Assembly (NCBI GenBank): GCA_002364615.1
Contig: DEYP01000012.1
Coordinates: 1 to 64,000, forward strand
DNA from: Arsukibacterium sp. UBA3155
GTDB lineage: Bacteria; Pseudomonadota; Gammaproteobacteria; Enterobacterales; Alteromonadaceae
Length of the DNA: 64,000 nt
Reading direction: 5' to 3'
Positions within the stretch are counted from its first letter, which is position 1, and every line of letters begins with the position of its first letter. The notes under the pieces were generated by a model. That model saw only the letters and a program-made list of their open reading frames with translations, was not told where the DNA came from and did no database searches. Shown here one piece after another: positions 31,230-34,588 of this stretch. A program made the translations under genes and the position numbers.

Positions 31230-33542
31230 CTAAACCAATAGCGCCATACCGCCATTTAAATTATACACCGTATGAAAACCAAACCGACGTAATACCTTAC
31301 AGGCCAGCAAACTACGATTACCACTACGACATACCAGTAACAATGGTCTTGAGGGTTCCAGTTGCCTGCTGATAAGTGCATCACATAACTTTGATAACGG
31401 CACCGCTAACACCTTATTTAGTGCGGGCAAATGCTGCTGTAGCGGCCCGGCGCTTTGCTCGTGAGGCTCTCGCACGTCAACTACCTGCAGTTCGGGCTGC
31501 TGTTTCAATACGTCGGCAAGCTCGGCTTTGTCTAACACCCGACTGGCATCGGTGACCGTAACCTCCACCAATCCGCAATAATAATGACTGGCTTGCTGCA
31601 ATTTAGCGGTCTGGGCATTTAACTGTTGTTGCCATTGCTCAACAGGCTGGCCGGCCAGCACTTTGCTGAATAACTCACTTTCCTGTTTAGCAAGGTGCAA
31701 GGTTGTGGCAAATCGCTGTGCATAATCATGACTGGATAACAGCAAAGTATCCGGCTCAACCTTTGCAGCTAATGTCTGAATACTCTGTTGCAATTCGCTG
31801 GCATTACCTCCGGCTAAATCGGTACGACCTATCCCGCCGGGTAAAATTAAATCGCCGACAAATACCGCGACGACCCGTTGGCGATGCTGCAAAATAATAC
31901 TGATCGCGCTGGCACAGTGACCAGGGGTCGCCATCCGCGTTAGCGAATAGTCAGCGAGCACGATAGCGTTAGTGCCCTCCGGCCAACCTGAATCGTCGCA
32001 GTTGTCCTGATAAAAATGTAATGCCTGACGCAGCAATAAGGCGGCATTTTGCTGTGGTCGCTCAAGTTGCAGCTCGTGTTGCAGCTCGTGTTGCAGCTCG
32101 TGTTGAAAGTCATCTTGCGAATGATGATGCGTTTCCAGAATAGCCAATAACTGCAGCTGGCGGCCTTGTACAATATTGATCATACGGTTTACCAGGGCTG
32201 GCACCGGATCAATGACCACAGCTTGCTTAGTCTGATCATCAATCAGCAGGTAGCTGCAGCTGTCTTCATGTTTTAACTGAAGCAGACCGTTGGCGTGGAT
32301 CTCCAGCGTTGGCGTGGCATCCGTCACCACAAGACAATGCTTGTTAACCACCTCTTTCAATGCTCTGATCGCTTTGCAGGCGTCAGCGCATTCAATGGCT
32401 GTCATCGCTGGCCCAAAAGATAACCGGATGGCTCCCTGACTGCGCCACGCAGCCAACCCCATGGCATCCAGTACAAAGCTGCTGGGTACTTTTGAACTGC
32501 ATGCGGAGCCACTACTTATCCGAATGCCCGCCGCATCAAATAAATCCATAATATCCTTACTGTAAAAACCGGGCACAGAAAAATTTATGGTCGTCGGGAC
32601 AATATAAGGACGCTCGCTATTTAGCGTCAGCGCTGGAAAAACTGCTATTAGCGCATTGAGTAAATCGTCCCGGTAATTCCACAGTGTTTGCTCACTCTGA
32701 AACACCTTGCTATCGGTTTGCTGCAACTCGGAAAGTACAGCACCAAGTGCAGCAATCCCCGGTAAATTTTCAGTACCAGAGCGTAACCCCCCCTCCTGAC
32801 CACCGCCGGCAATAAAAGGTTGATAAGGCGCACTGGCTCTTACATATAAAAAGCCGACTCCCTTTGGGGCATAGAGTTTGTGACCACTAAATGGCGCATA
32901 ATCAATAGTGGTGGTTGCCAGATTAAGCTGCATTTTGCCCAGTGCCTGAACACAGTCGACCAGCCAGAATACGTCAGGGTTTGCCGCGCGGATACAATGC
33001 TCCAGCTCGTTTAGCTGTTGGCTGATCCCTGTTTCATTATTTGCTGCCATGGTACAAATAAGACCGGCAGCAGCAGCGTGCTTTGCAATAAACCCGATAT
33101 CGAGCTGGCCGTTCTGATCGACCGGAATAGCGGTTACTGTAGCGTCCAGTTGCAACACCTCATTCCAGTGCTTTAAACTTTCGGGTACCGCTTTGTGTTC
33201 GGTGGCGCCATACAGCAGCAAGGTCTCGGCTCCCTTTCTGCCTTTAGCGCGCAGTGCCAATAACGCTGATACCACCGCACTTTGAATACCTTCAGTGGCG
33301 CCTGAAGTGAATACAATACGACCGTGACCCGCCCCTGTAACTGTGCGGGCCAGATTTCTGGCCTGCTCTAACGTTGCTTTGGCCTTAATGCCGGTGGTAT
33401 GGCTGCTGCTGGGGTTGCCAAACTGTTGTTGCATGCACTGCATAGCCGCCAGTGCTGCTGCCGGCAAAACGGGCGTCGTCGCATTATTATCTAAATAAAT
33501 TTCGGCAGGTCGGGGGCGTGGACTTATTTGTTTCGTTGTCAT
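31230..33542 (-). CDS. Tri-domain fusion: cysteine desulfurase, persulfide-dioxygenase-like domain, rhodanese
   Basis: A 770-residue single chain. Residues 1-395 are an IscS/NifS-type desulfurase with the PLP Lys222 (SGHKLYAPKG), His116 in ATEHK and catalytic Cys348 in SSGSACSS. Residues 420-660 are a metallo-beta-lactamase-fold domain of ETHE1/persulfide-dioxygenase type: ETHHHSQDD (canonical ETH.HADH), TPGH542, GD564, GGIGRTDL and SSHDY. The three iron ligands of ETHE1 correspond to His472, His542 and Asp564, all present; the usual Asp-His of the first motif is replaced by Gln-Asp. Residues 665-770 are a rhodanese with Cys738 in CRSGNRS. The chain could take sulfur from cysteine, pass it as persulfide and oxidise it or transfer it. 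Monocistronic. Inference only for the channelled reaction. Confidence 0.88.
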   Translation of the reverse strand: MTTKQISPRPRPAEIYLDNNATTPVLPAAALAAMQCMQQQFGNPSSSHTTGIKAKATLEQARNLARTVTGAGHGRIVFTSGATEGIQSAVVSALLALRAKGRKGAETLLLYGATEHKAVPESLKHWNEVLQLDATVTAIPVDQNGQLDIGFIAKHAAAAGLICTMAANNETGISQQLNELEHCIRAANPDVFWLVDCVQALGKMQLNLATTTIDYAPFSGHKLYAPKGVGFLYVRASAPYQPFIAGGGQEGGLRSGTENLPGIAALGAVLSELQQTDSKVFQSEQTLWNYRDDLLNALIAVFPALTLNSERPYIVPTTINFSVPGFYSKDIMDLFDAAGIRISSGSACSSKVPSSFVLDAMGLAAWRSQGAIRLSFGPAMTAIECADACKAIRALKEVVNKHCLVVTDATPTLEIHANGLLQLKHEDSCSYLLIDDQTKQAVVIDPVPALVNRMINIVQGRQLQLLAILETHHHSQDDFQHELQHELQHELQLERPQQNAALLLRQALHFYQDNCDDSGWPEGTNAIVLADYSLTRMATPGHCASAISIILQHRQRVVAVFVGDLILPGGIGRTDLAGGNASELQQSIQTLAAKVEPDTLLLSSHDYAQRFATTLHLAKQESELFSKVLAGQPVEQWQQQLNAQTAKLQQASHYYCGLVEVTVTDASRVLDKAELADVLKQQPELQVVDVREPHEQSAGPLQQHLPALNKVLAVPLSKLCDALISRQLEPSRPLLLVCRSGNRSLLACKVLRRFGFHTVYNLNGGMALLV
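32067..32102 (-). repeat. In-frame 12-bp triplicate repeat
   Basis: Three perfect copies of a 12-bp unit (plus strand ttgcagctcgtg at 32067, 32079 and 32091) encode the repeated tetrapeptide HELQ directly after the metal motif of the middle domain of the fusion protein. Confidence 0.97.
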
Positions 33543-33669: not shown

Positions 33670-33694
33670 AAAAAAGGGCTGCACCTGGCAGCCC
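33670..33694 (-). terminator. Terminator after fadR
   Basis: Stem gggctgc/gcagccc (33676-33682 with 33688-33694) followed by T-run on the minus strand, 5 bp beyond the fadR stop. Confidence 0.9.
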
Positions 33695-33699
33695 CAACC

Positions 33700-34416
33700 C
33701 TACTCAATAAGATCTTTCGGAATGTCTGGCCGCAATTCCTGCCAGATTTTACCGCTTTCAATCCCATATTTTCTGACAGCCATCACTACTTCATCGTGCT
33801 TTCCAGCTTCAGCATATTGCTTTAACTGCGCGTAAAACTTACGAGCCAACTCCCGGGCCGCCGGGTGAGAAAAGTAAAAACGGGCTATTTTGTTATACAG
33901 TCCACGGAAACCATTTAAAATCAGCACATATATCCGATTCGAAGAGTGTAACGCAAGTTCGTGGTTTAAATTATAATCAAACTCGGCAAACGCAGCTGGC
34001 GTGTCATCTAGCAGCTCAGCACCAGTAAACGCCGCGATCACTTCCTGCTGATGCGTTTTAATCGCTCCACGAATATAAATAGCACTGATATTGGTACGGG
34101 CTGACAATAAATCATCTACCAACTTAGGCATCTGATCTTCATCTAACCTGGCGAGGGTTTCAAGAATATTAAGCCCTGAAGTTTCCCAGTAATTATTTAC
34201 TTTAGTCGGTTTACCGTGCTGAATGGTCAGCCAGCCATCACGTGCCAGTCGCTGTAGTACTTCACGTAACGTAGTTCGGGTAACACCAATCAATTCAGAC
34301 AGTTCACGCTCTGCTGGTAAAATTGATCCAGGCGCAAACTTACCATTCCAGATCGAATCTACAATATATTCTTCAGCAAAACCGGCAGGGCTTTGCGCTT
34401 TAATCAGATTGGTCAT
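33700..34416 (-). CDS. fadR: Fatty-acid metabolism regulator FadR
   Basis: A 238-residue GntR-family regulator. The start is the ATG at 34416, since the protein from there ([18 protein letters not shown]) aligns with the start of E. coli FadR; the upstream in-frame extension does not. The winged HTH covers 1-75 ([23 protein letters not shown]), the acyl-CoA-binding FCD-type domain about 80-230. FadR represses beta-oxidation genes and activates unsaturated fatty acid synthesis. It is divergent from dsbB, as in E. coli, although nhaB, which lies between them there, is absent. A FadR-type palindrome lies upstream of fadI in this window. Confidence 0.96.
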
Positions 34417-34588
34417 GCCAGAAAATCCGTCAGGGTCATTATATAAGTTGACTGATTGTACCAGAGCGCTGCCAGTTAACAAGTCGGCGCTTAAAAATAG
34501 CCACGGTGATCCAACACAACAATTGTGTAATGCAGACAAATCCCTTAAATTAGCCAATTAGCTGATTGTAAAACGATTAGGAAAATTT

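Follow-up and report, generated by a model that had tools for sequence, protein, structure and literature searches.

The window analysed here, a stretch of 64,000 nucleotides of an Arsukibacterium contig, contains a gene whose single product joins three sulfur-handling modules, namely a cysteine desulfurase (CD), a persulfide dioxygenase (PDO)-like domain and a rhodanese (Rhd). The question raised by this locus is whether such a protein carries sulfur from cysteine to an oxidised form within one chain, and whether this would be the general function of the family to which it belongs.

Architecture of the fusion gene

The CD-PDO-Rhd fusion gene occupies positions 31230..33542 on the minus strand as an intact frame of 770 residues, beginning with an ATG at 33542 and containing no internal stop; the plus strand of the same region has many stops, so that the minus strand alone is open. 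The three domains and their order, as given by an earlier sequence-only reading, were borne out by Pfam, which placed Aminotran_5, Lactamase_B and Rhodanese in that sequence, and all six residues named in that reading (K222, C348, H472, H542, D564 and C738) were in place. In phmmer searches against the PDB, cysteine desulfurases matched residues 14-382 and the PDO-rhodanese fusion BpPRF residues 533-766. A chance origin of the fusion is excluded by the profile scores and by full-length relatives found from 87% identity downward. A frameshift or an assembly join was also rejected as its origin, the same architecture being present in many genomes.

Distribution of the fusion and composition of the sample

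In the sample of the window's own order, the fusion was found in 43/394 genomes (the window's included), of which 41 were matched to the C-terminus (query position 767-770) and two (G383 and G392) in part. Splitting into separate genes in relatives, named in the earlier reading as a result that would speak against it, was not observed: one open frame without internal stop was present in 43/43 matched genomes of this sample. The best 80 of 389 relatives (GTDB contigs) came from Arsukibacterium (87-75% identity), Rheinheimera, Alishewanella, Alkalimonas, Thalassotalea/Thalassomonas, Idiomarina and Burkholderiales (Roseateles, Pelomonas, Mitsuaria, Variovorax, Ideonella and Rubrivivax). Relatives were detected in 7/399 genomes of the order of Variovorax (Burkholderiales), in 47/299 of its family and in 5/299 of the phylum sample (own genome included). 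The class sample, in which Burkholderiales are probably thinly represented, gave nothing beyond plain desulfurases at E 1e-55 (0/368 other genomes).

Full-length fusions (45-47% identity) were also seen on the 0.8-1.3 Mb second replicon of Pseudoalteromonas (NZ_CP045419.1, NZ_CP074588.1 and NZ_CP022523.1); these three large replicons, all predicted to be non-mobilizable, were the sole matches in the plasmid collection. Location on a mobile element was considered and rejected, as the neighbourhood is common to about half of 101 loci.

For classification, 141 members were used. They are not a random sample, being composed of the window, 78 of the best 80 loci (of 389 relatives), 20 of the 43 order-sample loci, 7 loci of the Burkholderiales order and 35/36 family loci; from the Variovorax-family sample, all 28 short rows and 8 of 20 full-length rows were taken. 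The truncated contigs L053 and L063 were left out of the 141, and L160, in which THSHGDH and CRSGNR are present with no HDY or GR-x-D match, is in no count.

The desulfurase and rhodanese modules

The CD domain (residues 14-395; 32358..33503, minus strand) was recognised by Pfam Aminotran_5 over residues 14-381 (1.4e-54; 186 bits against a cut-off of 21.5). It contains the PLP lysine K222 (codon 32877-32879), H116 and, in a group I loop, the catalytic C348 (codon 32499-32501), which makes it a group I cysteine desulfurase at fold level. The earlier label "IscS-type" holds in so far as the domain is NifS/IscS-like and of group I. It shares with the IscS and NifS desulfurases the fold, the PLP lysine and the SSGSAC catalytic loop, but it lies far under the equivalog cut-offs of both (TIGR02006 for IscS, 196 against 643 bits; TIGR03402 for NifS, 271 against 531) and is ~36% identical to the IscS-like protein of its own genome. 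Two or more further homologues of the desulfurase are encoded there (36% and 27% identity to this CD), so the CD of the fusion is not the housekeeping IscS.

In the Rhd domain (residues 670-770; 31233..31535, minus strand; Pfam Rhodanese over residues 673-765, 3e-9), the catalytic C738 (codon 31329-31331) stands in the CxxGxR loop typical of active rhodaneses, here CRSGNRS (residues 738-744), a sequence found in 93/141 members. K222, C348, H116, C738 and R743 were each present in 141/141. Judged by these residues, the constant part of the family is the cysteine desulfurase plus the rhodanese.

Identity of the middle domain

The middle domain (residues 405-650; 31593..32330, minus strand) has an ETHE1/persulfide-dioxygenase-like metallo-beta-lactamase fold, as assigned by Pfam Lactamase_B (residues 519-604, 2.2e-6, the best stretch alone not being significant) and by a profile of 29 middle domains searched against the PDB. 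The best match of this profile was 4ysb (8.8e-38), which we take to be Myxococcus PDO1, then 8zbd and 9rhq (both named MBL-fold only), BpPRF (2e-31), human ETHE1 (6e-31) and the plant homologue 2gcu, while glyoxalases appeared at 1e-19 and weaker (glyoxalase II 7e-19, GloB 7e-17). A different identity, that of a glyoxalase-II-like hydrolase and not a dioxygenase, is suggested by the best partial match in NCBIfam, which is GloB (TIGR03413) for the Arsukibacterium protein (55 bits, far under 201) as well as for a member with the full PDO motif (57 bits). Against this stand the ranking in the profile search, on which the glyoxalase II identity was rejected, the PDO signature GR(T/S)D...HDY, and the missing Asp-His pair, which leaves the Arsukibacterium protein without the residues for a second metal; we regard such a hydrolase as very improbable.

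Among known sulfur-handling fusions, BpPRF (5VE3-5VE5) and CstB, in which a PDO domain precedes a rhodanese, resemble the C-terminal half of the Arsukibacterium protein, but in the available descriptions they have no N-terminal desulfurase. Against the model of the bifunctional sulfurtransferase/dioxygenase Blh (NF040641) the protein scores 33 bits, with a cut-off of 625, and the sulfurtransferase part of Blh is N-terminal, whereas the rhodanese is C-terminal here.

The iron site and its second shell

Alignment with the PDO of A. caldus (H57/H113/D130) points to a 2-His-1-carboxylate set of putative iron ligands, H472 (32127-32129), H542 (31917-31919) and D564 (31851-31853; all minus strand). 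Further PDO-site residues are R573/D575 (R139/D141 in A. caldus), H605 (H171) and Y607 (Y173), R573 and Y607 corresponding to the Arg and Tyr of the GSH site that are common to PDO types. The fusion is thus like type I PDOs (A. caldus PDO, human and plant ETHE1) in its 2-His-1-Asp triad, its R/D pair and its H-D-Y at matching places. These enzymes are, however, single-domain, and the Arsukibacterium protein lacks the Asp-His pair of their motif, without which A. caldus PDO is inactive. The previously noted departure from HxHxDH, and the caution attached to it, proved justified: in place of THxHxDH the protein reads T-H472-H-H474-S-Q-D-D (THHHSQDD), with Q476/D477 at the positions of D61/H62, the second-shell pair of A. 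caldus PDO. The motif T-H-x-H-A-D-H-x-(T/S) with its Asp-His pair occurs in 78/141 members and, unlike in the Arsukibacterium fusion, is kept complete (THxHADH) in BpPRF according to the PDB profile alignment. Directly after the altered HxH motif lies a stretch with a 12-bp tandem repeat (3.3 exact copies; 32066..32105, minus strand; from a repeat search and translation) encoding QHELQHELQHEL (QHEL repeats), and the length of this stretch differs among Arsukibacterium species.

The A. caldus study reports that the D61A and H62A variants had undetectable activity with unchanged melting points, and that H57A retained about 6% and D141A 1.5% of activity (PMC6060420). As both second-shell variants were inactive, dioxygenase activity of the Arsukibacterium protein is doubtful. 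The Asp of the GR-x-D pair partners the active-site Arg in the same enzyme; Asn was seen in place of D575 in 12/78 full-motif members (e.g. L092-L098).

Classes of the family and constraint on the middle domain

The 141 members comprise 78 with the full motif, Roseateles toxinivorans being one example, 26 with the triad only (iron ligands kept, second-shell Asp/His pair gone), 20 "dead" ones, in which neither H472 nor H542 was matched, so that all 20 are without both ligand histidines, and 17 without the middle domain. The Arsukibacterium fusion belongs to the triad-only class, which includes Arsukibacterium (8/8, window included), Alishewanella (5/5) with a near Rheinheimera, two further Rheinheimera, and Thalassotalea/Thalassomonas and kin. 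Within this class the triad is present in 26/26 by definition, H474, H605 and Y607 in 26/26 each and R573 in 25/26. Some genomes carry two copies: G1224 has one full-motif and one dead copy, and Roseateles caseinilyticus (G761) has two diverged three-domain copies (L115 and L079). In one protein of 612 aa (L090, G392 contig C13) the CD and Rhd sites are intact, and the middle domain has shrunk to ~124 residues that are no longer recognisable.

A cysteine between the middle domain and the rhodanese, C656 (31575..31577, minus strand), is conserved along with the iron triad. It was found in 78/78 full-motif and 26/26 triad-only members (104/104 with the triad), in 0/17 without the domain and in 2/20 dead rows, both of Idiomarina type, the latter count being approximate as the middle-domain alignment of dead rows is unsure. 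In two Thalassotalea rows a recent loss changed H472Q, H542Y and C656Q together. On this pattern, C656 may take part in the sulfur handling of the iron module. G519-W520 (L-G-W-P motif) is a family-specific feature, invariant in triad rows and absent at that place in four PDB matches; W520, kept in 15/20 dead rows (approximate for the same reason), is possibly a domain-contact residue.

Constraint was expressed as mean pairwise dN of the middle domain over that of the CD; pS was near saturation, so dN ratios alone were used. The ratios were 2.04, 2.46, 2.06, 2.15 and 2.66 in full-motif groups (n = 5), 1.89 (Arsukibacterium), 2.13 and 2.50 in triad-only groups (n = 3), and 3.48, 3.57 and 3.71 in dead Burkholderiales groups (n = 3), while the dead Thalassotalea pair L066/L074, two nearly identical rows, gave 0.76. 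By these ratios, the triad-only domain is constrained to the same degree as the full one. These values speak for a retained function of the Arsukibacterium middle domain, which need not be the textbook one.

Two readings of this function were weighed. If the iron domain were an active dioxygenase, the protein would be a complete cysteine-to-sulfite (or thiosulfate) enzyme disposing of surplus cysteine or persulfide. Its constraint, like that of full-motif lineages, and the conservation of the triad, R573, D575, H605, Y607 and C656 are in favour of this; the replacement of a pair in which either change to Ala inactivates A. caldus PDO, and a second PDO-like protein encoded elsewhere in the genome, make it unlikely in our judgement. 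The domain might instead be a pseudo-enzyme, that is, a spacer or docking module placing C348 and C738, or a non-oxidising persulfide binder. The deviating metal motif agrees with this, as do the 20/141 members that keep a domain without ligand histidines, most of them with W520. A useless iron site should, however, let the triad, H605 and C656 drift, and none of them drifts in the 8/8 Arsukibacterium rows, whose dN ratio shows none of the rise seen in the three dead groups. We consider the pseudo-enzyme conceivable, although somewhat improbable.

Forms without the middle domain

In the family sample, 18 rows matched the CD alone (frames of about 490-840 aa, 52-58% identity); on reading, 17 were CD-Rhd proteins and one (L152) was a full-motif protein. 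The CD of these 17 is 52-58% identical to that of the window, while plain desulfurases among the matches listed do not exceed 40%. The two catalytic cysteines are 123-152 residues apart in CD-Rhd forms, 222-390 in dead members and 367-427 in full or triad-only ones.

A CD-Rhd enzyme of Pseudorhodoferax sp. Leaf274 (WP_056898193.1) has been characterised. The reports describe it as both a cysteine desulfurase and a thiosulfate sulfurtransferase, with C334 and C466 as the cysteines responsible; sulfur passes from cysteine desulfuration at the CD to the Rhd cysteine and then to thiols, and thiosulfate is used weakly (PMC8931425, PMC12319549). Its CD and Rhd modules and their order match those of the Arsukibacterium protein, but it has no middle domain, and its C334-C466 spacing is 132 compared with 390 for C348-C738. 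Its published catalytic numbering is identical to that of members L145 and L148, in which, numbered from the M of the initial MEIYLD, the catalytic cysteines are C334 and C466. From residue numbering only, we infer that the Pseudorhodoferax enzyme belongs to the fusion family. The Arsukibacterium protein itself agrees with the CD-Rhd type in that a single chain holds a CD and an Rhd with its catalytic residues complete, with CD modules of one clade, but not in a direct joining of the two, as a PDO-like domain of ~260 residues separates them.

A tree of 64 CD domains placed CD-Rhd rows in at least four places, some inside supported three-domain clades: L145/L149/L147 lie within such a clade (100/94, 98/88), and L137/L138 beside a dead-middle row (100/90). 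At minimum, six changes between absence and presence of the middle domain and six between metal and no metal are required. A single clade was rejected both for the CD-Rhd rows (cost 180 log units, p-AU 0.0006) and for all iron-less rows (114 log units, p-AU 0.0005). Because several CD-Rhd forms nest inside the three-domain clade, the Pseudorhodoferax enzyme is probably a shortened relative of the three-domain family. In a tree with a distant outgroup (14 rows, on a very long branch), six CD-Rhd rows were basal, and hence the first step could have been an insertion into a CD-Rhd protein and not a loss. Repeated loss of the middle domain inside the clade, as read from the tree, is independent of this root question.

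Genomic neighbourhood

In the window the gene order is dsbB, fadR, fusion, chrR and a gene for an ECF sigma factor. The upstream neighbour fadR (33700..34557, minus strand; NCBIfam FadR, 390 bits, above cut-off) lies outside the system. It is found with the fusion in 51/101 loci and chrR in 50/101, essentially in the Rheinheimera-Arsukibacterium-Alishewanella-Alkalimonas group, other lineages having different neighbours. A terminator-like hairpin after fadR (33675..33695, minus strand; consensus match only, with 6 such sites found against 3.3 expected in shuffles) separates it from the fusion, which suggests that the fusion gene may have its own promoter. A conserved partner gene as a clue to the substrate was rejected, as the neighbours vary by lineage, and Pfam on ten neighbours revealed a malic enzyme, a porin, a pseudouridine synthase, a PALP enzyme and others, with no sulfur-specific set.

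Elsewhere the genome encodes a glutathione synthase (above cut-off), and GSH/GSSH should therefore be available. It also encodes a GloB and a separate canonical PDO-like protein with THAHADH (L005:1453-2325, G000 contig C8), a Blh-type dioxygenase part without the sulfurtransferase part (389 bits to NF040641 over the dioxygenase part, under the 625-bit cut-off). With the latter present, the genome need not rely on the fused domain as its sole PDO.

Proposed function and its meaning

The "self-contained route" from cysteine to oxidised sulfur put forward by the sequence-only reading does not hold as the general function of the family, because the 20/141 members without both ligand histidines and the 17/141 without the domain keep C348 and C738. 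We propose a presumably soluble single-chain sulfur-mobilising enzyme, in which the PLP desulfurase would take sulfur from L-cysteine, yielding alanine and a persulfide on C348; the rhodanese would receive this sulfur at C738 and hand it to thiols, for instance glutathione. This transfer, shown biochemically for the close CD-Rhd relative and predicted for C348/C738, would be the obligatory core. The embedded ETHE1-type domain would be an ancestral mononuclear-iron PDO module turning part of the persulfide into sulfite, possibly with C656 handling sulfur. Oxidation would then be an outlet that members can do without, plausible where the full motif is present, doubtful in the Arsukibacterium protein and absent without iron ligands, and the Pseudorhodoferax CD-Rhd would most likely be the same family with its oxidation module excised. 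This proposal as a whole (CD-Rhd core, optional ancestral PDO outlet, CD-Rhd by excision) seems to us reasonably probable; counting against it are the missing second-shell pair, the second PDO, D575N in full-motif members in view of the residual activity of D141A, the low ratio of L066/L074 and the basal CD-Rhd rows. We give rather little credence to a more far-reaching version, in which one chain would convert cysteine to alanine and sulfite (or thiosulfate), the C348 persulfide reaching its own iron centre via C656/C738, the Arsukibacterium site would be remodelled to work without the Asp-His pair, and repeated uncoupling would have given CD-Rhd.

CD-Rhd and PDO-Rhd pairs are already in print; no paper naming the three-domain form was found in the open-access literature searched, which misses most subscription papers. 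The reports on CD-Rhd rank it first in efficiency among the cysteine desulfurases characterised to date, and it serves as part of a biosensor for cysteine (PMC8931425, PMC12319549). Its placement among PDO-carrying relatives suggests where it came from (from them or beside them) and a possible use of its product. The series of full-motif, triad-only, dead and absent middle domains, found in a single protein family and in many cases in a single bacterial family, offers natural test cases of the role of this domain. It would show what the coupling of persulfide production to oxidation brings about, and whether a PDO works without the second-shell Asp-His pair.
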